The position numbers and the translations under genes were made by a program. This document shows, piece after piece, positions 804 through 56,531 of a stretch of 64,000 bases of DNA. The DNA comes from Cryptosporangium aurantiacum (GTDB taxonomy: Bacteria > Actinomycetota > Actinomycetes > Mycobacteriales > Cryptosporangiaceae): positions 62,001 through 126,000 of the forward strand of contig NZ_FRCS01000011.1 of NCBI RefSeq assembly GCF_900143005.1. Reading direction: 5' to 3'. Within the stretch, counting starts at the first letter, position 1. Each line of letters begins with the position of its first letter. Below the pieces are notes generated by a model. The model was not told where the DNA came from, did no database searches, and saw nothing but the letters and a program-made list of their open reading frames with translations.

Positions 804-943
804 GCGCCGCCAGGCGCGCGCAGTTGCTCTGACCTGGAGCCCGCTGAGGGCGGGGCGCTGCCTAGCGAGCGCGATGACGCCGCGTATAAGTGATACTCAA
901 GTCGTCGCGCTCGCTTGGCAGCGTCGTTCTCAGCGGGCCGCCC
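804..943. repeat. Structured repeat element, copy R1 (between rpoZ and coaBC)
   Basis: One of four related elements of about 135-140 bp. In plus-strand order it has a GCGCC/GGCGC hairpin (804-817), an outer arm GCCCGCTGAG, a long inner hairpin built on GCGAGCGCGA/TCGCGCTCGC with a GTAT/ATAC tip, and a closing arm CTCAGCGGGC that pairs perfectly with the outer arm. It ends 3 bp from the rpoZ stop codon. The other copies keep the pairing with different bases. It could be a terminator, a 3'-UTR RNA structure or a REP/MITE-like element. Confidence 0.8.
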
Positions 944-946
944 ACC

Positions 947-1237
947 TCAGCCGCGGTGTTTTGCCGTGGGGTCGACTTCGTTGGTCTGCTCGTGGGTCAG
1001 CATGTCGCTGTTGATCTCGCGCAGCGCGATCGACAGCGGCTTCTCCTGCGGCGACGTCTCCACGAGCGGACCGACGTACTCGAGCAGGCCCTCGCCGAGC
1101 TGGCTGTAGTAGGCGTTGATCTGGCGCGCCCGCTTGGCCGCGTAGATCACGAGCGCGTACTTGGAGGAGGTCTTCTCCAGCAGCTCGTCGATCGGCGGGT
1201 TGGTGATGCCTTCGGGGGCAGCGACGGTTCCGGACAA
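947..1237 (-). CDS. rpoZ: DNA-directed RNA polymerase omega subunit
   Basis: Small RNA polymerase subunit that helps fold and assemble beta-prime. The 96-residue product has the actinobacterial omega sequence: an N-terminal [14 protein letters not shown] segment, the conserved AAKRARQIN core and a LSIALREI tail. The start is TTG at 1237, preceded by GAGG about 10 nt upstream; no better start exists. It follows gmk on the same strand (83-bp gap) and probably belongs to the mihF-gmk-rpoZ transcript. Repeat R1 sits 3 bp past the stop. Confidence 0.95.
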
Positions 1238-1320
1238 AACGGATCAGCCTCGATGATTTTCGGGAGATTGTGGTTTCTCGTGAACCGAGCCAACGGCCCA
1301 CATCAGCGCCCGACCGTCCC

Positions 1321-1920
1321 TCAGCGGACCGGCACGGAGAGCAACTCTACCAACTCCGTGGCAGCCTGACCGACATTGTCGTTGACGATCGTCACGTCGA
1401 ACTCTTTCTCCGCGGCGAGCTCGACGACTGCCGCGTCCAGGCGGCGGCGGATCGTGTCCTCGTCCTCGGTGCCCCGGCCGACGAGCCGGCGGACCAACTC
1501 GTCCCAGGACGGTGGAGCGAGGAACACGAACTGCGCGTCGGGCATCGCCTCACGGACCTGCCGGGCACCCTGCAGCTCGATCTCCAGCAGAGCGGGACGC
1601 CCGGCGGCGAGCCGCTCCTCGACGGCGCGGCGGGGGGTGCCGTAGCCGTTGCCGGCGAACTCCGCATGTTCCAGGAGCTCGCCGGCGGCCACCATCGCGT
1701 CGTACTCGTCCCGGCTGACGAAGTAGTACTGCTTGCCGTGCTCTTCGCCAGGCCGGGGCGGGCGCGTCGTCACCGACACCGACAGCCACACCGAGGGGTG
1801 GTGACGCCGGATCTCGGCCACGACGCTGCCCTTGCCGACTCCGGACGGACCGGAGAGCACCGTCAGCCGCGCCGCGTTGTCAGCGGCGCGGGACGGGAGA
1901 CCGGGAGATTCAGCGCCCAC
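1321..1920 (-). CDS. gmk: Guanylate kinase
   Basis: Converts GMP and ATP to GDP and ADP. The 199-residue protein carries the P-loop GPSGVGKG at residues 24-31, the GMP-binding [11 protein letters not shown] segment and the YYFV..EY region. The GTG start at 1920 overlaps the last codons of mihF by 11 bp. No clear Shine-Dalgarno is seen, which suggests translational coupling to mihF; upstream in-frame starts lie deep inside mihF. Length fits bacterial guanylate kinases. Confidence 0.95.
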
Positions 1921-2239
1921 CGGAGGTGGAGCCGAACTCCTGGAGCAGCGCGCGCTTCTGGTTGTCACCCAGGCCACGCACCCGCCGACTCTCGGCGATC
2001 TTGAACTTCTCCATGATCTGGACGGCACGGACCTTGCCGATGCCCGGCAGGGCCTCGAGAACGGCCGAGACCTTCATCTTGCCGATGACGTCGTCCTGTT
2101 CGGCCGAGTCGAGGACCTCTGACAGGGACAGGCCACCGTGCTTGAGCTTGTCCTTGACCGCGGCACGCTGCTTGCGCGCCTCGGCAGCCTTCTGCAGAGC
2201 AGCAGCGCGCTGCTCGGGGCTCAACGACGGAAGAGCCAC
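1910..2239 (-). CDS. mihF: Actinobacterial integration host factor (mIHF/sIHF)
   Basis: Nucleoid-associated DNA-binding protein specific to actinobacteria, unrelated in sequence to proteobacterial IHF. The 109-residue product has a basic coiled N-terminal region ([14 protein letters not shown]) and a helix-two-turn-helix region with the LPGIGKVRA motif and a basic C-terminus ([17 protein letters not shown]). The GTG start at 2239 has a GAGGTG ribosome-binding site 5 nt upstream. It heads the mihF-gmk-rpoZ cluster as in Streptomyces and Mycobacterium. A promoter-like sequence lies about 50 bp upstream. Confidence 0.93.
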
Positions 2240-2286
2240 AGGTCACCTCGGGTGTTCGTTGGGGAAGCGGACGATTCCAGCGCGTG

Positions 2287-2316
2287 AACCTAGCGAGGAA
2301 GTACGACAGGAATCAA
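2287..2316 (-). promoter_or_regulatory. Predicted promoter of mihF-gmk-rpoZ
   Basis: Read on the minus strand, TTGATT (-35) and TAGGTT (-10) are separated by 18 bp, a good match to an actinobacterial housekeeping sigma promoter. It lies in the 309-bp gap 2240-2548 between pyrF and mihF. The rest of the gap holds the hairpin at 2522-2538 and nothing else I can name. Confidence 0.5.
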
Positions 2317-2521
2317 TGCGGCCCCGAATTGGCACCCACCCAATCAGGGCAAGAAACCGCGCAAAGCTGCGATTTCCACCCATTTGTGCGACCGAGTGGC
2401 GCCCATCGGGACCAATGCAGTGATCGATGACACACTCCACACTGACAGCAACGAGGGTTCGCCGCGAGGGGTTCATGCAGGTCGGAGAGTACCCATCGAG
2501 ACGAAGGCAACACCTACGTCC

Positions 2522-2538
2522 GTTCGGGGCACCCGAAC
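2522..2538 (-). terminator. Hairpin downstream of pyrF
   Basis: A 7-bp perfect stem (GTTCGGG/CCCGAAC, loop GCA) begins 10 bp after the pyrF stop. It probably ends the pyr operon before mihF. There is no U tract, as is common in actinobacteria. Confidence 0.45.
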
Positions 2539-2548
2539 CGGCCTGCTC

Positions 2549-3400
2549 CTAGGCAAGCACAGTCCGAAATTCGTCCGCAGCCCGGGCTGCCGCCGAGCGC
2601 AACGCGGACACCCCCGGACCCGCCCGCAGCACCTCGCGGGAGACCGACGGAAGCACCGCCCGGCGGGCGTCCCCGAACACCGCGCGGAGGTCGTCGGCGG
2701 TGCCGCCCTGCGCGCCCAGACCGGGCGCGAGGAACGGTCCGCCGACCCGGCTCAGATCGTGCCCGGTGTCCCCCACGGTCGCTCCGACGACGACCCCGAC
2801 CGGCCCGTAGGGGTCGTACCCGGCGTTGGCGTCGGCGACGGAGTCCAGGATCGTCTGGGCCACGGTCCGGCCGTCGGCGGCGACCGCGTGCTGAACCTGG
2901 GGTCCCTCGGGGTTGGACGTCAGCGCGAGCACGAAGACCCCGTTGCCGTGTTCGCGCGCGGTGGCGATCAGCGGGGCCAGCGACCCGAAGCCCAGGTACG
3001 GGCTCGCGGTCATCGCGTCACCGCACAGCGGCGAAGCGGGGTCCAGGTACGCGGCCGCGTACCCGTCCACGGTGCTGCCGATGTCGCCGCGCTTGACGTC
3101 GTTCAGCACCAGGGCGCCCGCCGCACGGGCGTCGCGGATCACCCGCTCGAGTACCGCGATCCCGCGGCTGCCGAACCGCTCGAAGAACGCCGACTGCGGC
3201 TTGAGCACCGCGACCTGGGCGGCCAGGGCCTCGACCACCGTGCGGGCGAACCGTTCCACGCCGTCGGCGTCGCTGGTCAGGCCCCAGGCGTCGAGCAGCC
3301 CCGGGTGCGGGTCGATGCCCACGCAGAGTGGTCCCCGCTCGGCGACCGCACGGGCCAGCCGCGCACCGAAGTGGTCGGTCGTGGTCGCGACCTGCGTCAC
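2549..3400 (-). CDS. pyrF: Orotidine 5'-phosphate decarboxylase
   Basis: Last step of UMP synthesis: decarboxylates OMP to UMP. The 283-residue protein is of the long type-2 family found in actinobacteria, with CVGIDPHPG near the N-terminus, the catalytic lysine segment NDVKRGDIG around residue 99, TASPYLG, and the phosphate-binding VSREVL region. The GTG start at 3400 overlaps the pyrD stop as GTGA. It is the last gene of the pyr operon. Confidence 0.96.
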
Positions 3401-4610
3401 TCGGACCCCTCCCCGTTGCCAGGCCCGCTGAGCTTCGTCACCCCGCGGGTGGTCACCGAACCCTGCACCGCCTGTCGAAAACCGCTCTGCGGGCTGCTCA
3501 GCGGGCCGGGAACACCCTCGCCGAGCGGCGATCGTCCGACGCCACGCTGAGTGACGGTTCGGTTGATTTCCCGGACCAGTCCGGGACCGCGGTAGATCAG
3601 CCCGCTGTAGACCTGCACGAGCGCCGCGCCGGCGTCGAACAGAGCGGTCGCGTCGGCGGCGGTGAGGATCCCGCCGACGCCGATCACCGGCAGCCGTCCG
3701 TCGGTCTCCCGGACCACGAACCCGACCAGTTCCCGCGCCCGGGCGGTCAGCGGCGCGCCCGACAGGCCACCGGCCTCCGTGGTGTCCACGCCCGCGCGGC
3801 TCAGCGTGGTGTTCGCCACGATCACCCCGGCGACGCCGTGCGCCGCACAGACCTCGAGGACCTCGCCGATCGCCGCGTCGGTCAGGTCCGGTGCGATCTT
3901 GACGACGAGCGGCACCGGCTTTCCGGCCGGGCGGCGGGGTCCCGGGGAAACGCTGAGCGCTGCGGCCTCCGAAGCCAACGCGCCGATCAGCGCGTCGAGC
4001 GCCGCACGGTCCTGCAGCGCGCGCAGCCCCGGTGTGTTCGGCGAGCTGACGTTGACCGCGACGTAGTCCGCGTACCGGTGCACGAGCCGCAGCGACGTCA
4101 GGTAGTCCTCGACCGCCTCGTCCAGCGGCGTCACCTTGGACTTGCCGAGGCTGACGCCGACCGGGATCGGCAGCGGCGGCGTCCCACCGGCGGACAGGTC
4201 GGCCAGCCGGGCGGCCAGCGCCGCCGCGCCCCGGTTGTTGAACCCCATCCGGTTGACGATCGCCTCGTCGGCGGGGAACCGGAACAGCCGCGGGCGCGGG
4301 TTGCCCGGCTGGGCGTGCGCGGTCACGGTGCCGGCCTCGACGAACCCGAACCCGAGCCCCGCCCAGGCCGACAGCGCGACCCCGTTCTTGTCCATGCCGG
4401 CGGCCAGCCCGACCGGCCCCGGGAACCGGACGCCGAACAGCGTGCGGCTCAGCCCCGGGGCATCGCCGAGGGCCCAGCGACGCCCGGCAGCCACTGCGGC
4501 GGGCACGCGGCCGAACCGAGTCAGGAGAGCCAGCGTGCGCTCATGAGCCGGCTCGGCGTCACCGCCACCGAGCCGGAACAGCGCCTGGTCGCGCAGGACC
4601 CGGTAAACGC

Positions 4611-4614
<4 letters not shown>
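3397..4614 (-). CDS. pyrD: Dihydroorotate dehydrogenase (quinone), class 2
   Basis: Membrane-associated flavoprotein that oxidises dihydroorotate to orotate and passes electrons to quinone. The 405-residue product has the class-2 N-terminal extension, the NRMGFNN and GVSLGKSK motifs, [12 protein letters not shown], and the FMN-phosphate region GVGGI. The ATG start at 4614 overlaps the carB stop (ATGA) and precedes the conserved [12 protein letters not shown] start; further upstream in-frame residues lie inside carB. The C-terminus runs about 40 residues past the core and is low in complexity. Confidence 0.95.
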
Positions 4615-7930
<3,316 letters not shown>

Positions 7931-7931
<1 letters not shown>

Positions 7932-9046
7932 CAGGCCGCACCTTCCATGAGCTTCACGAACCGGTCGAAAAGGTAATCTGCGTCGTGCGGACCGGCCGCC
8001 GCCTCGGGGTGGTACTGGACGCTGAACGCCGGCCTGTCCAAGCAATTCAGCCCCTCGACGACGTCGTCGTTGAGGCAGACGTGGCTCACCTCGGCGCGCC
8101 CGAACTCGGTCTCGGCGGAGCCGGTGCGGGGGGCGTCGACCGCGAACCCGTGGTTGTGCGCGGTGATCTCGACCTTGCCGGTCTCCCGGTCGATCACCGG
8201 CTGGTTGATGCCCCGGTGCCCGTACACGAGCTTGTACGTGCCGAACCCGAGCGCGCGGCCGAGCACCTGGTTGCCGAAGCAGATGCCGAACGTCGGCAGC
8301 CCCTCGCCGAGCGCGGCCTGCGCGAGCTTCACCGCGGTGTCGGCGGTCGCCGGGTCGCCCGGACCGTTGGAGAAGAACACCCCGTCGGCGCCGCGCGCCA
8401 GCAGCTCCTCCGGCGACGACGTCGCCGGCAGCACGTGCACCTCGATGCCGCGCGCGGCCATCCGGCGCGGGGTGTTGCGCTTGATCCCGAGGTCGATCGC
8501 GGCGACCCGGAAGCGCGTCGGGCCCTCGGCGTTCACCACGTACGGCTCGGGCGTCGTCACGTCACCGACCAGGTCGGCGCCGGCCATCTGCGGGCTGGCC
8601 AGGACGCGTTCCAGCACCTCCTCGGCGCTGGCGCCGTTGCTGGAGACCGCGGCGCGCATCGCTCCGCGCTCCCGCAGGTGCCGGGTGAGCGCCCGGGTGT
8701 CGACGCCGGCGATGCCGACGATGCCCTCGTCGGCGAGCCGGTCGTTCAGCGCGCCGGTCGCGCGCCAGTTCGACGAGATCCGAGCCGGGTCGCGGACCAC
8801 GTACCCGGCGACCCAGATCTTCGCCGACTCGTCGTCCTCGAGGTTCACGCCGGTGTTGCCCACGTGCGGCGCGGTCATCGTGACGATCTGGCGGTGGTAC
8901 GAGGGGTCGGTGAGCGTCTCCTGGTAGCCGGTCATGCCGGTGGTGAAGACGGCCTCGCCGAACGTCTCGCCGACCGCGCCGAACGCCTCACCGCGGAACG
9001 TGCGGCCGTCCTCCAGGACGAGCAGGGCAGGGGTCTTGGTGCTCAT
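7931..9046 (-). CDS. carA: Carbamoyl-phosphate synthase small (glutamine amidotransferase) subunit
   Basis: Releases ammonia from glutamine and channels it to CarB. The 371-residue product has an N-terminal small-subunit domain and a class-I amidotransferase domain, with the catalytic cysteine at C256 (GICFGNQ) and the His/Glu pair at H346 and E348 ([12 protein letters not shown]). The start overlaps the upstream membrane-protein stop (ATGA) and the stop overlaps carB, so the two subunits are translationally coupled. Confidence 0.97.
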
Positions 9047-9573
9047 GCGGTCTTCTCCAGGATGACTTTCTCGATCTCGCGCAGATGAGTGGCGTTGTCG
9101 ATGCGGTGGTCGGCGCGGAAGCCGCTGTCCAGCAGGTAGCCGTTCTGCTCCCAGGTGACGACGAGCAGCCCGGCGCCGCCGACGACCTTGTTCGCCAGCC
9201 CGGCGTCCAGGCGGGCTTCCCGGACCGCGGCGGCCGGGATGAACAGCGGCGCGGTGCCGTCCCGCTCGATCAGCAGCCCTTCGGGGCCGGTGTGCAGGGT
9301 GGCAGCGGCCCGGTCGGCCAGCTTCCCGGCGTAGACCCGGGCCTGCCAGGAGCCCGCTTCGGTGGTGCCGACGTAGAGCCCGTCGGACGCCGGGGTGGCA
9401 TCGGTGACGGTTCCCTCGGGCAGCGGCAGCAGGTCGGCGTGCGCCGCGACACGGCGCTTCCAGGCTCGTCGGGCGGCCCAGACGATCAGCGCGAAGACCA
9501 CCAGGACGCCGAGCGTGAAGAGAATCCGGCCGGTCCAGTTGTCGGGTGGACGTTCGTACGCAGCGGCGATCAT
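9043..9573 (-). CDS. Membrane protein with PH-like domain in the pyr operon
   Basis: 176-residue protein with one N-terminal transmembrane segment (about residues 15-35, [19 protein letters not shown]), a basic stop-transfer stretch and a soluble C-terminal domain of beta-rich character. A gene of this kind sits between pyrC and carA in Streptomyces and Mycobacterium (Rv1382-type 'export or membrane protein'). Its function is unknown. Stop/start overlaps with pyrC upstream and carA downstream make it part of the operon, but nothing in the sequence links it to pyrimidine chemistry. Confidence 0.8.

Positions 9574-10849: not shown

Positions 10850-10853
<4 letters not shown>
9570..10853 (-). 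CDS. pyrC: Dihydroorotase
   Basis: Zinc metalloenzyme that cyclises carbamoyl-aspartate to dihydroorotate. The 427-residue class-I protein has the metal-binding [10 protein letters not shown] motif (D51, H53, H55), a QHAED segment, TPHHLLLTD and the C-terminal ATDHAPH motif with the catalytic aspartate. The start overlaps pyrB (GTGA) and the stop overlaps the downstream membrane-protein gene. Confidence 0.97.
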
Positions 10854-12654
<1,801 letters not shown>

Positions 12655-13413: not shown

Positions 13414-13456
13414 ACGACGAAGCCCCTCGCGCCGATGGCGCGGGGGGCTTCGTCGT
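13414..13456 (+). terminator. Hairpin terminator after bldD
   Basis: A 20-bp stem with one G-T pair (arms 13414-13433 and 13437-13456) and a 3-nt GAT loop follows the bldD stop by about 40 bp. Confidence 0.7.
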
Positions 13457-13502: not shown

Positions 13503-13640
13503 GCGCCGCCAGGCGCGTGCAGTTGTCTGAAGGTGGAGCCCGCTCAGGGCGGGGCTGGCAGTCGAGCGCGAGGCCGCCTCGTATTAGTCATACTCAAGGC
13601 CTCGCGCTCGCCTGTCAGCGTCGTCCTAGGCGGGCCGCCC
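13503..13640. repeat. Structured repeat element, copy R2 (between bldD and nusB)
   Basis: Same architecture and orientation as R1: GCGCC/GGCGC hairpin, outer arm GCCCGCTCAGG facing CCTAGGCGGGC, and a long inner hairpin with CGAGCGCGAGGCC/GGCCTCGCGCTCG and a GTAT/ATAC tip. The last base directly abuts the nusB stop codon (13641-13643). It lies between convergent genes. Confidence 0.8.
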
Positions 13641-14093
13641 TCAAAGTTCTGCTTTGACGAGTTGGAGACGGCCTAGCAGGCCGTTCACGAAGCGCGGGGA
13701 CTCGTCCGTCGAGAGTTCGCGGGCGAGATCCACCGCCTCGTCGATCGCTACCGCGTCCGGGATGTCCTCGCGGAACAGCAGCTCGTACACGCCGAGCCGG
13801 AGCAGGTTCCGGTCGACGGCGGGCATCCGGTCGAGCGTCCAGCCCTCGGCGTACGTCGAGATCAGCTCGTCGAGCCGGGGCCGGTTCTCGGTCACGCCCT
13901 CGACCAGCGTGATCGCGTAGTCCGGAACCGGAGGGTCGGACTGCGCGAGCCGGTCGCGGGCGGTCGCGAGTGGTTCGGTACCACGGACGTCGGCCTCGAA
14001 CAGGATGTCGAGGGCGCGCTTCCGTGCCTTGCGACGCGCCGACCGCCGATCCGGGTCGTTGTCTCGGCGCGGGTTGGAGCGAGGGGTAGTCAC
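13641..14093 (-). CDS. nusB: Transcription antitermination factor NusB
   Basis: RNA-binding protein that with NusE (S10) forms the rRNA antitermination complex. The 150-residue product has the arginine-rich N-terminus ([20 protein letters not shown]) and the conserved [11 protein letters not shown] and [12 protein letters not shown] segments. The GTG start at 14093 overlaps the efp stop as GTGA. It is the last gene of the efp-nusB pair; repeat R2 follows immediately. Confidence 0.95.
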
Positions 14094-19031: not shown

Positions 19032-19035
<4 letters not shown>

Positions 19036-20213
19036 TCGATCACCAGCGCGGCCTTGTAGCCGGCGAGGTTCCGGCGGACCTCGTCCACCGAGTCGCCGCC
19101 GAACTTCTCCATCGCCGCGTCCGCGAGCACGAGCGCGACCATCGCCTCGGCGACGATCGCCGCGGCCGGGACCGCGCAGACGTCGCTGCGCTGCGCGATC
19201 GCCTTGGCCGCCTCGCCGGTCGTGACGTCGACGGTCGCCAGCGCGCGGGAGATCGTCGCGATCGGCTTCATCGCGCCGCGGATCCGCAGCACCTCGCCGG
19301 TCGTCATGCCGCCCTCGAGGCCACCGGCGTGCCCGGTCAGCCGCCGGACGCCGTCGGGGGTGTTGACGATCTCGTCGTGGGCGGCCGAACCCCGGGAGCG
19401 GGCCTGGGTGAACGCGTCGCCGATCTCGACGCCCTTGAACGCCTGGATGCTGATCAGCGCGCCGGCCAGCCGGGAGTCGAGCTTGCGGTCCCACTGGACG
19501 TGGCTTCCCAGCCCCGGCGGCAGGCCGTAGGCGAGCACCTCGACGATGCCGCCGAGCGTGTCGGCGTCGGCCTTCGCGGCGTCGACCTCGGTGACCATCC
19601 GGGCGGAGGCGTCCGGGTCGGCGCAGCGCAGCGGGTCGGCGTCGATGCGCTCGCGGTCGGCCGGGGTCGGCAGCTCGGTGCCGTCCTTGACCGCGACCGA
19701 GCCGAGCTCGACGACGTGGCTGACGATCTCGACGCCGAGCGCCTGCCGGAGCAGGGATTGCGCGACGGTGCCGAGCGCCACCCGAGCGGCGGTCTCGCGG
19801 GCGCTGGCCCGCTCCAGGATCGGCCGGGCGTCGGTGAAGCCGTACTTCTGCATGCCGGCCAGGTCTGCGTGGCCGGGGCGGGGCCGGGTGAGCGGTGCGT
19901 TGCGCGCCAGCGTCGCGAGGACGTCCTCGTCGACCGGGTCGGCGGCCATCACCTGCTCCCACTTGGGCCACTCGGTGTTGCCGACCCGGATCGCCACCGG
20001 GCTGCCGAGGCTGCGGCCGTGGCGGATGCCGCCGAGGATCTCCACCTCGTCCTGCTCGAACTTCATCCGGGCGCCGCGGCCGTAGCCCAGGCGGCGGCGG
20101 GCGAGCTGTTCGGAGATCTCGGTCGTGGTCACCGCGACACCGGCGGGCAGGCCCTCCAGCATCGCGACGAGGGCGGGTCCGTGCGACTCCCCCGCGGTCA
20201 TCCAACGCAACAT
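19032..20213 (-). CDS. aroC: Chorismate synthase
   Basis: Last shikimate step: EPSP to chorismate, using reduced FMN. The 393-residue protein begins at the family start ([12 protein letters not shown], with the conserved histidine) and carries [33 protein letters not shown] and [10 protein letters not shown]. It opens the four-gene aro operon. Repeat R4 fills the 148-bp gap to the upstream prepilin peptidase gene. Confidence 0.97.
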
Positions 20214-20228
20214 ACCCCCTATCTTGCA

Positions 20229-20362
20229 CGGCCCGTCGAGGACGACGCTGACAGGCCAGCGCGCTCCTTATGACGGCCCCCTAAATGTCACGGCGTGGCG
20301 CGCTGGACCGCCGGCCCCGCCCTCGACGGGCTCCACGTCAGAACCAGAGCGCCTACGGCGCT
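20229..20362. repeat. Structured repeat element, copy R4 (inverted; between prepilin peptidase and aroC)
   Basis: Reverse-complement copy of the R1-R3 element. Read on the minus strand it has GCGCC-GTA-GGCGC, outer arm GCCCGTCGAGG facing CCTCGACGGGC (perfect), and the inner hairpin CAGCGCGC/GCGCGCTG with a TGAC/GTCA tip. The end with the small hairpin touches the prepilin peptidase stop codon (20362-20364), the opposite edge from the one used in the other copies. Confidence 0.75.
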
Positions 20363-21237
20363 CAGGGAGACAGCACGATGGCCGTGAGGGTTCCGGCTAA
20401 CAGGAAGGGGCCGAAGGCGAGGCGGTCGGTGCGGGCGAGGCGGCGGGTGGTGAGTAGGGCCGCGGCGCACAGCCCGCCGTAGACGAACCCGTACACGAGC
20501 CCGGCGAACACCGCCGACCAGCCGTACCAGCCGAGCGCGGCGCCGAGCAGCCCGGCGAGCTTCACGTCGCCGTAGCCGAAACCGGCGGGCACTGCGATCG
20601 CCAGCAGGTACAGCACACCGAACGCGACCAGGCCGGCCTCGGCGGCCCGGAGCGGCTGCGCGGCGTCAACGTCGCCGTTGACGCCGACGAGCAGCGCACC
20701 GGCGCCGAGGAGGATCGCGAGGATCGGGTACGCGGGTAACGTCAGCGCGTCGGGCAGCCGGTGGGTACGCACGTCGACCGCGGACAGGACCAGGCCGAGC
20801 GCGGCGAGGAACAGCATCCCGGGAAGCTCCGCCGCCGCGCCCACCGCCCAGGCCACCGCCCCGCCGAGCGCCGCCGCCGCGATCCCGACCTCCACGCCCT
20901 GCACAGGCCCGCTCCGCGCAGAGGCCGCCCGCCCGGGACCCTCTCGCGCGGAGACCGCCCACGCCGCGGACGCCGGGGCCCGGGGCGCCGAAGCCGACCC
21001 CGCAGAGGCCGCGCGCGGCGGGGCCGCGGGCTGTGCGGGCCTGCGCGGTGTTGGGCGCATCCACGAGACCGGCGGTAGCGCGAGGGCTGTGGCGGCGGCT
21101 CGGGCGAGCGCGGGTTCGCCCGCCACCGGTCCACCCGCCACCAGCGCGGTCCGCTCCAGCGTCTCGGCGAGCCACCGCCCCGCCACAGCGGCAACGACGA
21201 CAGCCACGATCACCGCGGCGACGTCAGCGCCGGTCAC
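20362..21237 (-). CDS. Prepilin peptidase (A24 family), lacking the N-methyltransferase domain
   Basis: Membrane aspartyl protease that cleaves type IV prepilin-like leaders. The 291-residue protein has several transmembrane segments and both catalytic aspartate motifs: DVRTHRLPD and the FGYGDVK (GxGD) motif. It lacks the cysteine-rich N-terminal methylase domain; instead residues about 50-115 are an Ala/Pro/Arg-rich low-complexity stretch. The GTG at 21237 has GGGAGGG 6 nt upstream. An equivalent gene lies between aroE and aroC in Streptomyces and mycobacteria. Codon 167 is TTA. No pilin gene is in the window, so its substrate is elsewhere. Confidence 0.85.
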   Translation of the reverse strand: MTGADVAAVIVAVVVAAVAGRWLAETLERTALVAGGPVAGEPALARAAATALALPPVSWMRPTPRRPAQPAAPPRAASAGSASAPRAPASAAWAVSAREGPGRAASARSGPVQGVEVGIAAAALGGAVAWAVGAAAELPGMLFLAALGLVLSAVDVRTHRLPDALTLPAYPILAILLGAGALLVGVNGDVDAAQPLRAAEAGLVAFGVLYLLAIAVPAGFGYGDVKLAGLLGAALGWYGWSAVFAGLVYGFVYGGLCAAALLTTRRLARTDRLAFGPFLLAGTLTAIVLSP

Positions 21238-46996: not shown

Positions 46997-47009
46997 ACCC
47001 GTCCACCTC

Positions 47010-47023
47010 CGTACAGCTGTTCG
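47010..47023 (-). promoter_or_regulatory. Candidate LexA (SOS) box upstream of ruvCAB
   Basis: On the minus strand CGAACAGCTGTACG matches the actinobacterial SOS box CGAAC-N4-GTTCG with a single mismatch. It lies 14-27 bp before the ruvC start codon, in the 53-bp gap after yebC. ruvCAB is damage-inducible in mycobacteria; regulation here is inferred. Confidence 0.45.
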
Positions 47024-47049
47024 GTACGGACGTGATCAAACCACAGTTG

Positions 47050-47799: not shown

Positions 47800-48454
47800 C
47801 GTACTGCCTCCTCGATCGTCTGCCCGCCGTTGGTCGGCACTGTCGCTGTCTCCCGAACCATCCGCACGAACAACTCGTGCACGCGGAGGTCACCCGTCAA
47901 CTCCGGGTGGAAGGAGGTCGCCAGCAGGTTGCCCTGCCGGACCGCGACGATCCTACCGTCCGCGGGGCCACCGCTTACCCGAGCGAGGATCTCGACGTCC
48001 GGACCGGTCGATTCCACCCACGGCGCGCGAATGAAGACCGCGTGGACGGGGGCGCCCTCGACCTCGGCGAACGCCAGGTCGGTCTCGAACGAGTCGACCT
48101 GGCGTCCGAACGCGTTACGGCGGACGACCATGGTGATGCCGCCGAAGCTCTCCTGATCCGGCCGTCCGTCGAGGACGGTCGAGGCCAGCATGATCATCCC
48201 GGCGCACGATCCGTACACCGGCAGCCCGCCGGCGATCCGCTCGCGAATCGGGTCGAGCAGGTCGAACACCCGGGACAACCGGCTCATCGTGGTCGATTCG
48301 CCGCCGGGGACGACCAGCCCGTCGACCTCCGCCAACTCGGACGGGCGACGCACGGGCACCGCGACGGCGCCTGCGGCCCGCAACGCGCTCAGGTGTTCAC
48401 GCACATCACCTTGCAGGGCGAAAACACCGATGAGGGGGGAGCTCACAGGGGAGG

Positions 48455-48458
<4 letters not shown>
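47796..48458 (-). CDS. pdxT: Pyridoxal 5'-phosphate synthase glutaminase subunit
   Basis: Supplies ammonia to PdxS. The 220-residue class-I amidotransferase has [22 protein letters not shown], the catalytic cysteine at C85 (YGSCAGMI) and the His/Glu pair in SFHPELTGD. It overlaps pdxS and yebC by 4 bp. Confidence 0.96.
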
Positions 48459-49363
<905 letters not shown>

Positions 49364-49443
49364 GGTTATCCGGCCTTTCGGTCGATTCTGGGTGTGTTTC
49401 TTACCGGAGAAATCTCTTCATCGTAGCTCCGGCGGCGGGGAGC

Positions 49444-49980
49444 TCACGACTGGCCGGTTGTGGCCCTTCCGACATCCTCGGCGGCCCGGCGCAGGGCTTC
49501 CTGCTCCCGGCGCTCGTGGTCGACGGCGTCCAGATCGAGCTCGTCGACGTCGAAGTACTGCGGGAGCGGCCGCCTGCGGGCCAGCCAGAACGTGCGCGGG
49601 ATCCGGGCCGTGCGCAGCGAGCGGGTGTCGCGGACCGCGTCGTTGTAGACCTGCCTGGCGACGACCAGGCGGCGGTTCTCGGCGAGCAGCGCGGGTGCCT
49701 CCAGCGCGTCGGCACCGAGGTGCCGCAGCTCGCGCACCAGGTCGTTCTCGGCGCCCTGCCGGGCGTCGGAGTCGGGGCGGCCGCTGGTCAGCGCGGCCTT
49801 CGCCACCTCGTGCACGCCGGGTAGCTCAGCGGCGGCCTCGGCACGACGGCCGAGCTGCTCCTCCAGCGCGTCCAGAGCGGCGCGGGTGCGGGCGGTGAGC
49901 CTGGCGATGCGGCGGGAGAGCCACCAGACGTAGAGCAGCACGAGCGTCAGCGCCACGACGATGACGACGGGCCAGTCCAC
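49444..49980 (-). CDS. LemA-like membrane-anchored helical protein
   Basis: 178-residue protein with one N-terminal transmembrane helix (VVIVVALTLVLLYVWWL, residues 5-21) and a long helical domain. Segments such as ENDLVRELRHLG, LLAENRRLVVARQVYNDAVRD and IPRTFWLA resemble the LemA fold. It lies 80 bp upstream of pdxS and 71 bp downstream of pimA on the same strand. Function unknown; LemA assignment is by motif resemblance. Confidence 0.7.
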   Translation of the reverse strand: MDWPVVIVVALTLVLLYVWWLSRRIARLTARTRAALDALEEQLGRRAEAAAELPGVHEVAKAALTSGRPDSDARQGAENDLVRELRHLGADALEAPALLAENRRLVVARQVYNDAVRDTRSLRTARIPRTFWLARRRPLPQYFDVDELDLDAVDHERREQEALRRAAEDVGRATTGQS

Positions 49981-50051
49981 GCGTCGACTGTATCGGGTAT
50001 GTGCATCGTGAGTGTTACGGCGTGATGGTTACGACAGCGCGCAGTAAAACC

Positions 50052-51248
50052 TCACCGCAGCCGCTCGCGCAGATACTGCGGCAGACGGTGCGTGGAGATC
50101 TCGTCCGCGTCGGTCACCATCGGTTCGCTGGGGTATGCCGCGACCGCGCTCTGGTACACGTCGACGACCCGTGCCGCCACCACCGGCCAGTCGAACGCCT
50201 CGACCGTCGAGCGCCCGACCGCCGCCAGTGCCGCCCGCTGCGCCGGGTCGTCGAGCAGCTCACCGACCCGCTCGGCCAGCGCCGCCGGCCTGCCGGTCGG
50301 GAACAGTGCACCGGCCCGCCCGTCGTCGAGCACGCGGCGGAACGCGTCCAGGTCGCTGGCGACGATCGTGGCACCGGCCGCCATCGCCTCGGTCAGGATG
50401 ATCCCGAACGACTCACCGCCGGTGTTCGGTGCCACGTACAGGTCGACGCTGCGCAGCATCCGGGCCTTGTCGGTCTCCGAGACCATGCCCAGCAGCGTCA
50501 CCCGCGGCCGTAGCGCGCGGGGCAACGCATCGAGCGCGTCGTCGGCGTCGCCGGGTCCTGCGACGAGCAGCCGGAGGCCCGGCCGCTCCGGTGCCAGCGC
50601 GGCGAACGCGTCCGCGAGCACCGTGAAGCCCTTCCGCGGCTCGCCGAACCGCCCGAGGAACCCGAGCGCGCCGCCCTCCCCCGGCCACCCCGGGAGCGGG
50701 GCCGCGTCCGCGAACTTCCCGACCGCCACGCCGTTCGGGATCTCCACCGCCCCGCCGTCCAGGTGCTCGACCTGCACCCGGCGGGCCAGCGCGGAGACCG
50801 CGATCCGCGCGGTGATCTTCTCCAGCACCGGTTGCAGGGCGCTGTGGACCGCGGCGAGGGTGCGCGACCGCTGGGTCGCCGTGTGGAACGTCGCCACGAT
50901 GGGACCGGTCGCCACGACACAGGCCAGCAGCGACAGCGACGGCGCGATCGGCTCGTGCACGTGCAGCACGTCGAACCGGCCGTCGCGCAACCACCGCCGC
51001 ACCCGCGCCAGCGAGATCGGCCCGAACGCCAGCCGGGCCACCGACCCGTTGTACGGCACCGGCACGGCTCGCCCGGCGGGCACCACGTACGACGGCAGGT
51101 CAGCGCCACCGTCCGCGGGCTCCTCGGCCGGTGCGAGCACCGACACCTCGTGGCCGAGGCCGATCAGCGCCTCGGCCAGGTCCCGGACGTGCGCTTGCAC
51201 GCCCCCGGGCACGTCGAACGAGTACGGGCAGACGATTCCGACACGCAT
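50052..51248 (-). CDS. pimA: Phosphatidyl-myo-inositol mannosyltransferase (GT4)
   Basis: Membrane-associated transferase that adds the first mannose to phosphatidylinositol. The 398-residue GT-B protein begins with the PimA signature MRVGIVCPYSFDVPGGVQAHV, has the LHVHEPIAPS region, EIPNGV, GRFGEPRKGF and the nucleotide-sugar motif ESFGIILTEAMA. The ATG at 51248 is the conserved start; upstream in-frame sequence lies in patA. It sits in the pgsA-patA-pimA order known from Mycobacterium (Rv2612c-Rv2610c). Confidence 0.93.
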   Translation of the reverse strand: MRVGIVCPYSFDVPGGVQAHVRDLAEALIGLGHEVSVLAPAEEPADGGADLPSYVVPAGRAVPVPYNGSVARLAFGPISLARVRRWLRDGRFDVLHVHEPIAPSLSLLACVVATGPIVATFHTATQRSRTLAAVHSALQPVLEKITARIAVSALARRVQVEHLDGGAVEIPNGVAVGKFADAAPLPGWPGEGGALGFLGRFGEPRKGFTVLADAFAALAPERPGLRLLVAGPGDADDALDALPRALRPRVTLLGMVSETDKARMLRSVDLYVAPNTGGESFGIILTEAMAAGATIVASDLDAFRRVLDDGRAGALFPTGRPAALAERVGELLDDPAQRAALAAVGRSTVEAFDWPVVAARVVDVYQSAVAAYPSEPMVTDADEISTHRLPQYLRERLR

Positions 51249-51265
51249 CCGTGCGTCCCCGGCGA

Positions 51266-52405
51266 TCAGTCGGCTGTCCGCCGCCGCCGCCGTGGCGGCA
51301 GGTCGGCCAGCCAGAGCGGCTGCAGCATGTGCCAATCCACCGGATGCTCCGCGATGCCTTCCGCGAGCGCGTCGGCAACCCGCTGCGTCACGGCCGCGAC
51401 CCGCGCGGCGTCCCGGTGCCCGTCTTCGATTTTTACGCTGTGCGGCGCGTCACCGCCCGAACGGTCACCACCGTCCGACGTACCGCCGTTCGCGTGCACC
51501 TTCGTCGGGGTGGCGTCCGGCTGCTCGTCCGCCGCAACCGTGGCCACCGCACCCGCGGCGGCCGGCTGCTCGGCGTCCGCCTGCGCAGCGGCCTGCGGGG
51601 CAGGCAGGCCCGGCGTCACCGCCTCCCCCCGCACCACCGCACTCCCGGGGCCGGTCTCGATCGGACCGATCAGCCGCGCCCGGGTCACCGGGCCGTCGTT
51701 CCAGAGCGCGAGCCCGAACAGCGGCGCGCCGGTCCGCAGCGCCAGTACCGCGGGCCCGGCGGGCATCTTCGTCCGCTCCCCGAAGAAGTCGACCTCGATC
51801 CCGCGCGCCGAGAGGTCCCGCTCGCTGAGCAGCACCGCCACCCGGCCCGCGCGCACCCGCTCGGTCAGCACGTCCAGCGGTGGCCGGGACGCGCCGGTGA
51901 GCGGCAGGATCTCCATCCCCAGCGCCCGCCGGAACGAGAGGAACCGCTGATAGAGGTCCTCGGGCTTGAGCCGCTCGGCGACCGTGGTGACCGGGACGCC
52001 GTGCAGTGTCGCCCAGGCACCGGCCAGGTCCCAGTTCCCGGCGTGCGGGAGCGCGACGACCACGCCCCGCCCGGCCGCGACGGCCCGATCGAGCTCCTCG
52101 ACGTTCTCCAGCACGAACCGCCGCTCGATCTCCGCGTGCGACCACTCCGGCATCCGGAACGCCTCGTACCAGTACCGGGCGTACGACTGCAGGCCGCGCT
52201 TCGTCAGGTCGGCCAGGTCGGCGTCGGACATCTCGGGACCGACGACCCGGCGCAGGTTGGCAGCCAAGCGGCGCACGCTCGCGCCGCCGCGACCGGCCAT
52301 CCAGCCGGCACCGCCCTCGAACAGCGCCCGCACCGGACGCTCCGGAAGTACCCGGACCAGCTTCCACCCCGCGGCGTAGGCCGCGCCCGTCACCCGCTCG
52401 TTCAC
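51266..52405 (-). CDS. patA: Phosphatidylinositol mannoside acyltransferase
   Basis: Lauroyl/palmitoyl-transferase-fold enzyme that acylates phosphatidylinositol mannoside. The 379-residue protein has the catalytic H121/D126 motif (LPHAGNWDLAG), the VLLSERDLSARGIEVDFFG segment, MPAGPAVLALR, and the C-terminal HPVDWHMLQPLW motif. A low-complexity Ala/Gly/Asp insertion at residues ~261-330 splits the domain. It overlaps pgsA by 4 bp. Confidence 0.92.
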   Translation of the reverse strand: MNERVTGAAYAAGWKLVRVLPERPVRALFEGGAGWMAGRGGASVRRLAANLRRVVGPEMSDADLADLTKRGLQSYARYWYEAFRMPEWSHAEIERRFVLENVEELDRAVAAGRGVVVALPHAGNWDLAGAWATLHGVPVTTVAERLKPEDLYQRFLSFRRALGMEILPLTGASRPPLDVLTERVRAGRVAVLLSERDLSARGIEVDFFGERTKMPAGPAVLALRTGAPLFGLALWNDGPVTRARLIGPIETGPGSAVVRGEAVTPGLPAPQAAAQADAEQPAAAGAVATVAADEQPDATPTKVHANGGTSDGGDRSGGDAPHSVKIEDGHRDAARVAAVTQRVADALAEGIAEHPVDWHMLQPLWLADLPPRRRRRTAD

Positions 52406-53115
52406 CCCTGCTCCCGCCCGGCCTCAGCGGTGGGCCCACCAGTGGGCTCAGCAGGGGGCTCAGCGGGCGGGGGTGGAACCGGGCCGGTGTCCAGCGGCCG
52501 GGCCGGGCGGACGCGGTCGTCGCGGGTCTGGTTCCAGACCGCCCGCACCCGCTGCCCGACCGTGAACGCCGCCAGCGCGGTGAGCAGCCAGAGGACCCAC
52601 TCGATGCCGCCGGGCACCCCGAGCACCTCGAGGACGCCACCGAAGCCGACCAGCACCAGCCGCTCGGTGCGCTCGGCGATGCCGACGTTCGCGGTCAGCC
52701 CGAGGCCTTCCGCCCGAGCCTTCGCGTACGACACCAGGACGCCGGTGATCAGGCAGAGCAGCGCCGCGATGCCGGCCGAGTCGCGCCCCTCGGTGAACAG
52801 CCAGTACGCGGCCGCGGCGAAGATCGACGCGTCGGCGAGCCGGTCGCAGGTCGAGTCGAGGAACGCGCCCCACCGGCTCGACCAGCCGCGCGCTCTGGCC
52901 ATCGCGCCGTCGAGCATGTCGGTGAGCGCGAACAACGTGATCGCGATCCCGCCGGCGAGCACGTGGCCGGGGACGACCAGGAAGATCGAGGACAGTACGA
53001 CACCGGTCGTCCCGATCAGCGTCATCGCGTCCGGGGTGAGGCCGGTGCGCACCAACGCGGCGCCGATCGGGCCGGTCACGCGGGTGATCCGGGCGCGCGC
53101 CAGGACGTTGAGCAT
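52402..53115 (-). CDS. pgsA: CDP-alcohol phosphatidyltransferase (phosphatidylinositol phosphate synthase)
   Basis: Membrane enzyme that joins a CDP-diacylglycerol to an inositol phosphate head group. The 237-residue protein carries the full CDP-AP motif D66xxDG(70)xxAR(74)...G83xxxD87xxxD91 and several transmembrane helices; residues ~196-237 are a Pro-rich tail. Its place before patA and pimA fits inositol-phospholipid synthesis. The 362-bp gap 53116-53477 to the divergent GTPase gene shows no further gene; it must hold both promoters. Confidence 0.92.
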   Translation of the reverse strand: MLNVLARARITRVTGPIGAALVRTGLTPDAMTLIGTTGVVLSSIFLVVPGHVLAGGIAITLFALTDMLDGAMARARGWSSRWGAFLDSTCDRLADASIFAAAAYWLFTEGRDSAGIAALLCLITGVLVSYAKARAEGLGLTANVGIAERTERLVLVGFGGVLEVLGVPGGIEWVLWLLTALAAFTVGQRVRAVWNQTRDDRVRPARPLDTGPVPPPPAEPPAEPTGGPTAEAGREQG

Positions 53116-53477
53116 CGGAATCCGTTCTCGAAGGGGGCGGCAGCGGCGTGCCCACGATAGCCGCTACCTGGGCGGCTCCCACTCGGGCGCCGGATCCGCC
53201 CCGGCGGCGCCCTCGTGGGCACTCCCGCCGCGACGGCCCGCGCGGGCAGGCGGATCCGACCCGCGGAGGAAGGGCGCCCTTACTCACCTCGCGTCCGGAT
53301 CGCCCGACACAATTGGGCTTGTCGGATCGGTGCAGCAAGTCCCGGCGTCCGCCAGGGCTTGCCCCGTACCGGGGCGGCGGTGTGGGATCGATCACACGGA
53401 CCTGTCTTCCGGTGGCGCGGCCGGGATGTGCGCCGGCCGCCGGCCAGGCGTCCCGGCGAGCGCGAGGAGGCACCCCG

Positions 53478-55760
53478 ATGGCGCAGAAAGTGGCTGGTAG
53501 CCCCGACCGGGCGGCATCCGCCGGGCCGGTGGTCGACGATCCCCGGTCCCTACGCAACGTCGTCCTGGTCGGCCATTCCGGGGCCGGCAAGACGACGTTG
53601 GTCGAGGCTCTGCTGGTAGCAACCGGAACAATCTCCCGGGCCGGATCGGTGGTCGACGGGACGACGGTCTGCGATTGCGACCCCGCAGCGGTACGGCAGC
53701 AGCGGTCGGTGACGCTGACCCCGGCGCCGATCGTCCACCGCGGCGTGAAGATCAACCTGCTCGACACCCCCGGCTACGCGGACTTCGTCGGTGAGCTGCG
53801 GGCCGGCCTGCGCGCGGCGGACGCGGCGCTGTTCGTCATCTCCGCGGTCGACGGCGTGGACGCCAGCACGATCGCGCTGTGGGAGGAGTGCGCCCGGGTC
53901 GGGATGCCGCGGGCGGTCGTCGTCACCCGGCTCGACCACCCGCGCGCGGACTTCGACGAGGCGGTGGCGATCTGCCAGCGGGTGTTCGGCGACGGGGTGA
54001 TGCCGCTGTACCTGCCGGTGCACGAGGCGATCGAAGGCACCGTGGGGTCGGCCGCTGAATCCGGTAGCCGCCAGACGCTGTCCGACTTCCTCGGCGGCAT
54101 CGACGGCGCCACCGAGCAGACCCGCACCGCCGGTCTGTTCGGTCTGGTCACCCAGCAGATCTACGACTACAGCGCCGGGGGCCCGGAACCGGTCATCCGC
54201 CCGGCCGACCCCGAGCACCTCGAACTGGTCGAGGAGTCCAGGAACAACCTCATCGAGGGGATCATCGCCGAGAGCGAGGACGAGACCCTGATGGACCGGT
54301 ACCTGGCCGGCGAGGAGATCGACCCCGACGTGCTGATCACCGACCTGGAGACCGCGGTGTCCCGGGGCTCGTTCTACCCGGTCCTGCCCGCCGACCCGAC
54401 GACCGGTGTGGGGCTGGCCGAGCTGCTGGACGGCATCGTCCGCGCGTGCCCGCCCCCGACCGAGCGGCCCACGCCCGCGGTGACGACGATCGACGGCGAC
54501 CCCCGTGACGCGCTGACCGCCGACCCGAACGGCCCGCTGGTGGCCGAGGTGGTGAAGACGACCGTCGACCCGTACGTCGGCCGGGTGTCGCTGGTCCGGG
54601 TGTTCTCCGGGACGCTGCGCGCGGAGGACACCGTGCACGTCTCCGGCCACGGCGTCCGGACCCGGGACGACACGCACGCGCCCGACGAGGCCTGGGCCGA
54701 CCACGACGCCGACGAGCGCGCCGCACACCTGTACTCCCCGCTCGGCACGCAGCTGCGCGAGGTGCCGTACGCGGTGGCCGGTGACCTCTGCGCGCTGACG
54801 AAGGTCGGCAGCGCGGAGACCGGCGACACGATCTCGTCGAAGGACAACCCGCTGCTGGTGGCGCCGTGGGACCTGCCGGAGCCGCTGCTGCCGGTCGCGG
54901 TCGTCGCGCGCAGCCGCAGCGACGAGGACGCGCTGGCCAAGAACCTCTCCCGGCTGGTCGCGGGCGACGCGACGCTGCGGATGGAACGCAACCCGGAGAC
55001 CGGTCAGCTGGTGCTCTGGACGATGGGCGAGGCCCACGCGGACGTCGTCCTCGAGCGGCTGCGCGCGGGCGGCGTCGACCTGGACACCGAGCCGGTGCGG
55101 GTGCCGCTGCGGGAGACGCTCGCCGGCCCGGCCAAGGGGCACGGGCGGCACGTGAAGCAGTCCGGCGGGCACGGCCAGTACGCGATCTGCGACATCGAGG
55201 TGGAGCCGCTGCCGACCGGTTCGGGGTTCGAGTTCGTCGACCGGGTGGTCGGTGGGGCGGTGCCGCACCAGTACATCCCGTCGGTGCAGAAGGGCGTCCG
55301 GCAGCAGATGGAGCGCGGCCTGGTGGCCGGCTACCCGGTCGTCGACCTGCGGGTGACGCTGGTGGACGGCAAGGCGCACAGCGTCGACTCCTCCGACGCG
55401 GCGTTCCAGATGGCCGGTGCGCTGGCGCTGCGCGAGGCGGCGGCATCCGGGACGGTCAGCCTGCTGGAGCCGGTCGACGAGGTCGACATCACGGTGCCGG
55501 ACACCTACGTCGGCCCGGTGATGAGCGACCTCTCCGGACGCCGCGGCCGGGTGCTCGGCACCGAACCGACTGGTGCTCGCGGAGAACCGGGACACGAGCG
55601 GACGATCGTGCACGCGGAGGTGCCGGCGACCGAGCTGGTGCGCTACTCCCCCGAGCTGCGGTCGCTGACGTCCGGCACCGCGACGTTCACCCGGACGTTC
55701 GCCCGCTACGAGCCGATGCCGCCGAACCTCGCCGCGAAGGCCCTCGCCGACCAAACCTGA
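53478..55760 (+). CDS. EF-G2-like translational GTPase (FusA2 type)
   Basis: 760-residue paralogue of elongation factor G. The P-loop is GHSGAGKTT, G3 is DTPGYADF, and the G4 NKxD motif is changed to TRLD. The effector region reads QRSVTLTPAP rather than the RGITI of EF-G. Domains II-V follow (the GHGQYAICDIEVEP segment of domain IV and a C-terminal ARYEPMP tail). ATG 53478 has GAGGAGG 7 nt upstream. M. tuberculosis FusA2 is similar; those proteins lack normal translocation activity and their role is unclear. It is followed by the HIT gene (22-bp gap). Confidence 0.88.
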   Translation: MAQKVAGSPDRAASAGPVVDDPRSLRNVVLVGHSGAGKTTLVEALLVATGTISRAGSVVDGTTVCDCDPAAVRQQRSVTLTPAPIVHRGVKINLLDTPGYADFVGELRAGLRAADAALFVISAVDGVDASTIALWEECARVGMPRAVVVTRLDHPRADFDEAVAICQRVFGDGVMPLYLPVHEAIEGTVGSAAESGSRQTLSDFLGGIDGATEQTRTAGLFGLVTQQIYDYSAGGPEPVIRPADPEHLELVEESRNNLIEGIIAESEDETLMDRYLAGEEIDPDVLITDLETAVSRGSFYPVLPADPTTGVGLAELLDGIVRACPPPTERPTPAVTTIDGDPRDALTADPNGPLVAEVVKTTVDPYVGRVSLVRVFSGTLRAEDTVHVSGHGVRTRDDTHAPDEAWADHDADERAAHLYSPLGTQLREVPYAVAGDLCALTKVGSAETGDTISSKDNPLLVAPWDLPEPLLPVAVVARSRSDEDALAKNLSRLVAGDATLRMERNPETGQLVLWTMGEAHADVVLERLRAGGVDLDTEPVRVPLRETLAGPAKGHGRHVKQSGGHGQYAICDIEVEPLPTGSGFEFVDRVVGGAVPHQYIPSVQKGVRQQMERGLVAGYPVVDLRVTLVDGKAHSVDSSDAAFQMAGALALREAAASGTVSLLEPVDEVDITVPDTYVGPVMSDLSGRRGRVLGTEPTGARGEPGHERTIVHAEVPATELVRYSPELRSLTSGTATFTRTFARYEPMPPNLAAKALADQT

Positions 55761-55782
55761 CCCGCTCCGTAGGATCGCTTGC

Positions 55783-56358
55783 ATGACGGGCCCGGAGATC
55801 GAACGGCAGCAGGGGGCCGGCGACCCCGATCACTTCCAGCGACTGTGGACGCCCCACCGGATGGCGTACATCAAGGGCGAGGGCAAGCCTGCCGGCGAGG
55901 GAAGCGACGGGTGTCCGTTCTGCCTGATGCCGTCGCTGCCGGACGACCAGGGACTCATCCTGGCCCGGGGCGACACCGTGTACGCGCTGCTCAATCTGTA
56001 CCCGTACAACTCGGGTCACCTGATGGTCGTCCCGTACCGGCACGTCCCCGACTACACCGACCTCGACGAAGCCGAGGTGGCCGAGCTCGGCGCGTTCACC
56101 CAGGACGCGATGCGCGCGGTGCGGAAGGCGTCCGGTGCCCACGGGTTCAACATCGGGATGAACCAGGGGTCGGTGGCCGGTGCGGGGATCGCCGCGCACC
56201 TGCACCAGCACGTGGTGCCGCGGTGGGGCGGGGACACCAACTTCATGCCCGTGGTCGGCCAGACCAAGGTCCTCCCCGAACTCCTCGGCGAGACCCGCAC
56301 GCTGCTCGCCGCGGCCTGGGCCGACACCGCCGAAGCCGCCACCCTCGAGCGCCCGTAG
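55783..56358 (+). CDS. HIT-family hydrolase (Ap4A phosphorylase-like)
   Basis: 191-residue nucleotide hydrolase or phosphorylase. It has the HIT motif H139LHQHVV (HxHxHxx) and a CPFC pair at residues 44-47 in the N-terminal region, as in the Ap4A phosphorylase-like Rv2613c group. In mycobacteria this gene stands beside thrS and pgsA on their strand; here it faces thrS, so the local arrangement has changed. Confidence 0.9.
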   Translation: MTGPEIERQQGAGDPDHFQRLWTPHRMAYIKGEGKPAGEGSDGCPFCLMPSLPDDQGLILARGDTVYALLNLYPYNSGHLMVVPYRHVPDYTDLDEAEVAELGAFTQDAMRAVRKASGAHGFNIGMNQGSVAGAGIAAHLHQHVVPRWGGDTNFMPVVGQTKVLPELLGETRTLLAAAWADTAEAATLERP

Positions 56359-56395
56359 CTCGCTTGCCCGGCGTCCACCGCAGCAATTGCTTGAG

Positions 56396-56531
56396 GCGCC
56401 GCCAGGCGCTGTTGTTTGAACCTGGAGCCCGTCCAGAGCGGCGCCGGCAGTCGAGCGGGCCGACGCCGTGACATCAGCGAAGCGTCATCAGGAGGCCCGC
56501 TCGCCTGTCAGCGTTGTTCTGGGCGGGCCGC
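56396..56531. repeat. Structured repeat element, copy R3 (between HIT gene and thrS)
   Basis: Same orientation as R1 and R2: GCGCC-GCCA-GGCGC hairpin, outer arm GCCCGTCCAGA facing TCTGGGCGGGC (one G-T pair), inner hairpin CGAGCGGGCC/GGCCCGCTCG with a TGAC/GTCA tip. It abuts the thrS stop codon (56532-56534) with no gap, between convergent genes. Confidence 0.8.

Follow-up and report, generated by a model that had tools for sequence, protein, structure and literature searches.

The window analysed here, a 64,000-nt stretch of the genome of Cryptosporangium aurantiacum (9.58 Mb, referred to as G000), holds four copies of a hairpin element of about 118 nt, lying next to predicted genes that include nusB, aroC and thrS (Table 1). 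No tRNA gene was found within the 64 kb. The copies sit where the sequence-only reading had put them, and each of them folds more stably than all 200 of its dinucleotide shuffles. Superposition of the four sequences gives a common order: a small GC hairpin, a T-rich spacer (ending, for example, in CTGACC or TGAACC) and the ~118-nt hairpin GGAGCCCG ... CGGGCCGCCCAC, which has an asymmetric loop below its apex.

Table 1. Features of the 64-kb window. Bounds of the four copies are those of the covariance model, which places them in G000 at C11:62825-62944, C11:75524-75641, C11:82225-82345 and C11:118413-118534; z-scores are relative to dinucleotide shuffles.
Feature	Position	Strand	Evidence
Small 5' hairpin GCGCCGCCAGGCGC of copy 1	804..817	+	sequence and fold
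Copy 1 of the ~118-nt hairpin element	825..944	+	covariance-model match; fold z -6.9
Predicted gene, stop codon 2 nt from the 3' end of copy 1	947..1237	-	gene prediction
Inverted repeat before copy 2, resembling an intrinsic terminator of the upstream gene	13414..13456	+	by eye
Small 5' hairpin of copy 2	13503..13516	+	sequence
Copy 2 of the ~118-nt hairpin element	13524..13641	+	covariance-model match; fold z -7.5
nusB, overlapping the 3' end of copy 2 by 1 nt	13641..14093	-	Pfam NusB, 4.3e-34
aroC (chorismate synthase), downstream of copy 3	19032..20201	-	Pfam Chorismate_synt, 5.9e-114
Copy 3 of the ~118-nt hairpin element, between tandem genes, upstream of aroC	20225..20345	-	covariance-model match; fold z -4.7
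Small 5' hairpin GAGCGCCGTAGGCGCTC of copy 3; overlaps the upstream gene's stop codon	20347..20363	-	sequence and fold
Small 5' hairpin of copy 4	56396..56409	+	sequence
Copy 4 of the ~118-nt hairpin element	56413..56534	+	covariance-model match; fold z -6.1
thrS, overlapping the 3' end of copy 4 by 3 nt	56532..58511	-	Pfam tRNA-synt_2b, HGTP_anticodon, tRNA_SAD

The GCGCC hairpin that had been described as common to the four is exact in front of copies 1, 2 and 4 (at 804, 13503 and 56396) but has another loop in copy 3 (GAGCGCC and GGCGCTC around GTA, 20347-20363). By itself it proves little, because 7 of 100 shuffled versions of the window also reached three matches to the 14-mer with one mismatch allowed (0.86 on average). 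The stem arms quoted in the same description are present, with outer stems that are less clean than stated: copy 2 has one G.U and one C.A pair, copy 4 one G.U. The terminator-like repeat preceding copy 2 also has a match, in reverse, in the orthologous DNA of G003, a second genome of the genus.

Together with the small 5' hairpin the element is often about 145 nt long. Its best-conserved part is its ends (TTCTGAACCTGGAGCCCG ... CGGGCCGCCCAC; also CTGGAGCCCG / CGGGCCGCCCAC). The loop below the apex is conserved in the commonest type (CGCCGC/CTCAAG); the apex itself is variable, and shortened forms of 47-72 nt occur. The 3' flank is mostly GCCCAC followed by a stop codon (131 of 147 copies with a recognisable 3' anchor). 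The ATAAGGAGG apex type is found, for example, in L018 and in the window at 20225-20345 (a variant) and 56413-56534 (ATCAGGAGG). This apex type bears TAAGGAGG, which we take to be a Shine-Dalgarno-like match, in a loop of the element strand; no start codon was seen after TAAGGAGG. Two long forms (L171:2996-3185, minus strand; L182:5940-6122, plus strand) have some 50-60 nt of extra, partly similar apex sequence (AAGCTCAG...GTGACC...GGCCGTGACATCAG) and may be the older or complete form of the element. Many copies of G000 and G003 are preceded by a further 5' module resembling GCGTCC(G/A)C..GCAGTTGCCGTTGAAGCGCCGCCAGGCGCGCGCAGTTG (compare 804-817 of the window), so the units may be mosaic.

The four copies are part of a much larger set. 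A BLAST search with copy 1 returned 44 matching pieces from the whole of its own genome, some being parts, or the reverse strand, of one copy. The covariance-model search of the same genome found further copies: a 31-copy model gave 115 matches at E ≤ 0.01, on both strands and many of them the two strands of one palindrome (150 candidates scored). After merging, 147 distinct copies were counted in the fetched loci of four genomes of the genus, namely G000 (56), G003 (at least 53), G002 (20) and G001 (at least 18); as a count of fetched loci this is a set that genome totals may exceed. The profile cut-off removed from this count nine copies of G000 that are short or partial (L088, L089, L093-L096, L098, L100 and L101) as well as short forms of G002 (L175, L177 and one in L174).

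Matches were found in 5 of 61 searched genomes: all four that belong to the genus, plus G004 from a sister genus. The 56 other genomes of the order gave none under strict filters. A class sample of 394 genomes, which overlaps the order sample, gave matches in the own genome and in none of the 393 others, again under strict filters; since these were strict and nine candidates per genome were scored in the class sample, weak or diverged families could be missed. The copies of the sister genus are of equal length, with a diverged but alignable interior and ends that are again best conserved. Four elements of the G004 type were identified in the MAG 'Actinomycetes bacterium isolate RYN_140' by a contig scan, and these were the only stretches with matching arms among the 80 of 119 that were folded. 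Judged by these searches, the element is family-restricted, occurring among the genomes searched in one genus and one sister genus. The sequence-only reading knew no family that matched, and Rfam likewise has no match at the gathering threshold in the window. Over the copies in L171, L182, L044 and L121 nothing lies above gathering either; the sub-gathering hits there at E ≤ 2 are mostly miRNA families and are most likely long-hairpin artefacts.

The original description was right about a structured four-copy element and missed its most unusual feature, the flush position at stop codons. Genes were predicted on both sides of 145 copies, and in 126 of these the gene next to the 3' end runs on the opposite strand. 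The element's 3' end comes to no more than 4 nt from the stop codon of that gene in 89 of the 126, overlaps the gene end by more in 26 (at least four of which, L086, L090, L173 and L176, are short forms with ends extrapolated to full length) and lies farther away in 11. Ten of the farther copies have a clear 3' anchor, and in seven of these A-rich sequence follows, by eye a terminator T-tract read backwards. Between tandem genes 37 of 42 copies are flush or overlapping, where 2.5 are expected from uniform placement in the free room and the largest of 100,000 simulations had 11; lack of room is therefore not the reason for flush ends there. Element-free convergent pairs are often close too (24 of 78 gap entries ≤ 14 nt, each pair being entered from both genes), so flush ends are less telling for convergent pairs alone, and scarce room may contribute to them. 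Ordinary hairpins start anywhere over 0-49 nt after stops (108 of 190 gene ends with a strong hairpin).

Among the 89 abutting stops TAG is over-represented (TAG 55, TGA 28, TAA 6) relative to all 618 predicted genes of the loci, the 89 included (TGA 404, TAG 155, TAA 59). Eight copies of the sister genus were read with both ends, and every one of them lies within 1 nt of a stop codon on the opposite strand; these eight are not all copies of that genus, as L387 is cut by a contig end and one more place is listed. Sixteen copies lie between same-direction genes, up to 315 nt before the next start, and no shared function or regulon was seen among 10 neighbouring genes examined. In the single-contig genome G002 the origin was taken to lie at dnaA (1.4 kb), and 18 of 20 copies are turned towards it, as are five of seven further short forms. 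Genes abutted by a copy in G002 are on the leading strand in 17 of 19 cases, compared with 102 of 173 for the remaining genes of the fetched loci (Fisher p 0.011). The long form in L182 starts shortly after the terminator-like hairpin of an Ms_IGR-5 sRNA gene (L182:5693-5906, RF02471, 73.4 bits); the repeat thus also sits at the end of a non-coding gene.

The fold is conserved by compensatory change. RNAalifold on 31 copies gives 36 consensus pairs, 22 of which show double changes, and none of 500 column shuffles reaches the observed value on any of five measures. Sliding the registers by 1-3 columns lowers the paired fraction from 96% to 33-43%; for both tests the structure was derived from the same 31-copy alignment, which favours it on this measure. 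Orthologous pairs between species provide a separate comparison, with the structure taken from the fold of one member. In the 19 of 31 pairs with identity ≥ 0.75 (827 base pairs; the 12 pairs below 0.75 were left out of the sum), 58 base pairs are changed on both sides, against 11.9 expected if the sides were independent, and 53 of the 58 are still paired. Some loci recur in these comparisons and some orthologues differ by arm or apex type, so the double changes are not all independent substitutions. The covariation proposed earlier thus exceeds the shuffled, slid and independence controls. With further copies found, covariation above these controls and no Rfam match in the window, none of the refuting outcomes named in the sequence-only reading has come about. 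That it marks selection on a folded structure is supported by these comparisons beyond the four copies, with the reservation that part of the covariation is whole arm types arriving as units, since the repeat disperses and orthologous loci carry different arm or apex types.

Comparison of the two strands shows that the GGAGCCCG-first strand is the more stable in 119 of 127 full-length copies with RNA parameters (mean -85.7 vs -77.2 kcal/mol; 20 of the 147 are not full length) and in 97 of 127 with DNA parameters. The element strand is also the more stable in 8 of 8 copies of the sister genus. Single changes from Watson-Crick pairs lead to G.U 46 times vs 15 times to A.C (among the change types listed for the 31 orthologous pairs), and a strand-neutral set of 27 pairs has 60 G.U vs 23 A.C cells. 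The consensus fold of the complement is as good (-49.8 vs -47.9 for the element strand) and has many G.U-type cells of its own (172 vs 65 the other way), so the preference for the element strand appears only moderate. Folded RNA and folded single-stranded DNA fit these strand data alike.

Copies at different loci of one genome are up to 95.8% identical. Relatives that lack a copy have empty sites, with convergent stops that are 3 nt apart at sites 1 and 2 and 1 nt apart at site 6, or an operon junction TGA GA ATG (site A). These two observations indicate that the repeat spreads. No target-site duplication was seen by eye at sites A, 1, 2 and 6, where the 5' boundary is not sharp. Copy 1 is present in G000 and G003 and absent from G002; copy 2 is present in G000 and G002 and absent from G003, and about 2 kb of non-aligning DNA takes its place in G001. 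Copy 3 was seen only in G000; at its place G001 has a short gap, and G002 and G003 have other DNA. Copy 4 is shared by G000 and G003, and G002 carries a short form in the opposite orientation. As judged by aroC identity to G000 over ~430 nt (G003 94.7, G002 89.9 and G001 89.7%), G000 and G003 are closest to each other, and for several sites this agrees with a gain in the lineage of the two; at sites empty in a single genome, loss rather than gain may have occurred. Decay by apex loss is seen in L175, where ~57 nt are missing.

Orthologous copies can differ in arm or apex type (L054/L190, L059/L189, L037/L160/L193; sites E, F, G and I), pointing to conversion among copies or to more than one insertion at a given site. 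Tandem arrays of element parts or related sequence occur in G002 and G003 (L145:1533-1725, L185:2560-2760, L192:3002-3233, L397 and L382). G002 (C1:7407702-7416483) has a segment of ~2.5 kb between two copies (L145 10854-13323) in the opposite orientation to G003, and both breakpoints coincide with element sites; the inversion in G001 (C9) concerns the adjacent segment L145 5978-10697 instead.

Searches for a mobilising enzyme gave the following picture. The Y1 transposase domain (PF01797) is found in none of the four genus genomes and in 5 of 14 control genomes, which weakens mobilisation by IS200/605 or RAYT proteins. The reverse transcriptase domain (PF00078) is likewise absent from the four genomes and found in 3 of 14 controls, which weakens group II intron or retro-mobilisation by a resident enzyme; one supplied from elsewhere is possible. 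A search for a parent insertion sequence by the 5'-end pattern with three mismatches gave 60, 57 and 44 matches in G001, G002 and G004; the reversed control gives 36, 38 and 25, so most of the matches are chance. Thirteen of 30 pattern loci in these genomes were read and contained hairpin copies, odd tandem forms, one copy cut by a contig end and one chance match; no autonomous parent element was found in this limited search.

Short palindromic repeats are common in bacteria, and several known kinds can be compared with the element by description. Pneumococcal BOX, RUP and SPRITE are small, interspersed, base-paired, non-autonomous repeats; SPRITE is described as terminator-like and enriched near gene 3' ends, and 36 BOX copies extend over the very 3' end of a gene and supply its stop codon (PMC3049150). 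The element resembles BOX and SPRITE in being multicopy, base-paired and at gene ends, and it differs from all three as a single near-complete hairpin of ~118 nt, mostly in one orientation to the gene, with an end flush with the stop in most copies and a strand-biased fold. REP, BIME and REPIN sequences are also dispersed intergenic palindromes, proposed to be the folded single-stranded DNA target of the trans-acting RAYT (TnpAREP) (PMC8266576, PMC3116915). REPs are described as 20-50 nt long, most often with a GTAG tag (PMC8266576), whereas our element has ~118 nt, the ends CTGGAGCCCG / CGGGCCGCCCAC and no Y1 domain in the four genomes of its genus. CGTC-tagged REPs, apparently without a dedicated transposase (PMC3733652), are of different size and end tags. 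Identity with them was rejected: the CGTC of the element is internal, and no such tetranucleotide stands at its end, as far as the ends are listed.

Like MITEs, the element is short and non-autonomous with terminal inverted arms that pair almost end to end (the 36 consensus pairs); unlike them, it ends flush with stops. No target-site duplication was seen by eye at the four empty sites, and no parent insertion sequence was found in the limited search. Intrinsic terminators share with it a GC-rich hairpin at gene ends, and the small 5' hairpin with the T-rich spacer resembles one, but the large hairpin is far longer and is followed by GCCCAC and a stop codon instead of a U-tract. Integron attC sites carry R boxes (RYYYAAC/GTTRRRY) and depend on the integron integrase; no GTTRRRY was seen by eye at the element's 3' end. 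Among the papers listed by topic searches, with most subscription journals outside their scope, none describes this repeat in its title or the beginning of its abstract. The best reading is a family of its own that is REP-, BOX- or MITE-like, with a placement rule that we have not seen described for the nearest kinds as compared here. We know of no element that explains a family with one end within a few bases of a stop in most copies, mostly in one orientation, in two genera.

Our main reading (probability of about 0.5) is that of an interspersed, non-autonomous palindrome family that would be moved in trans by putative machinery and would act as a hairpin barrier at gene ends. The machinery presumably recognises the conserved ends and the folded strand, and the element would settle with its 3' end at the stop codon, or less often at the apparent terminator T-tract, of a gene on the other strand. 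RNA of the element strand would then fold into the hairpin just before running antisense into the neighbouring gene. The complementary hairpin would stand at the end of the neighbour's own mRNA, where it could aid termination or protect the 3' end, and copies at gene ends may be kept because they are harmless or helpful. Both the trans-acting mobiliser and the role, as a barrier against antisense transcription or as a 3'-end hairpin for the neighbour's mRNA, are hypothesized from sequence. Against a barrier or terminator role counts that the large hairpin lacks the U-tract that standard intrinsic termination needs. Clusters of hairpins have been reported to induce termination (PMC8355165). A barrier does not require flush placement, and this too speaks against it, as do the lack of a common function among the 10 neighbours and the 16 copies between same-direction genes.

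The element may instead be purely selfish, with the fold as substrate of the mobilising enzyme, the stop position as target choice or safe haven and no function for the host; we regard this as a real, if tentative, possibility. Ends that are best conserved while the interior diverges between genera at equal length, the excess of TAG among abutting stops and the different arm and apex types at orthologous loci all agree with it, and the G.U preference would suit folded single-stranded DNA as well. It has to contend with the absence of both enzyme domains from all four genus genomes, with positive controls, and of target duplications seen by eye at empty sites. Another reading, which we think rather unlikely, has a mobile element inserting just after the stop codons of arbitrary genes in fixed orientation, where it would target the end of translation or of the transcript and not a DNA sequence, as a general safe-haven strategy; the target could be, for instance, the single-stranded DNA left open in the wake of RNA polymerase at the point where the ribosome that follows comes off the mRNA.

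Two further readings concern the fold itself. The strong fold, the strand-biased tolerance of G.U and the conserved loop of the commonest type would also be expected if the element strand were transcribed into a family of structured regulatory or non-coding RNAs, yet the apex varies and is shortened to 47-72 nt forms, the 10 neighbours share no regulon, no promoter was identified (without a systematic search) and Rfam gives no gathering match in the window and sub-gathering hits only over copies in four loci, so that such a family is improbable. Compensation might also arise without selection, if palindrome correction by template switching and conversion between copies kept the arms matched. 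Whole arm types that differ at orthologous loci (sites E, F, G and I) and the tandem partial copies point in that direction; correction should however yield perfect Watson-Crick arms, and G.U pairs and conserved mismatches persist. Double changes are seen, too, in orthologous pairs of identity ≥ 0.75, and we consider this explanation very improbable.

Either, then, densely packed genomes use the repeat as a movable hairpin for gene ends, or the element finds stop codons as it inserts.
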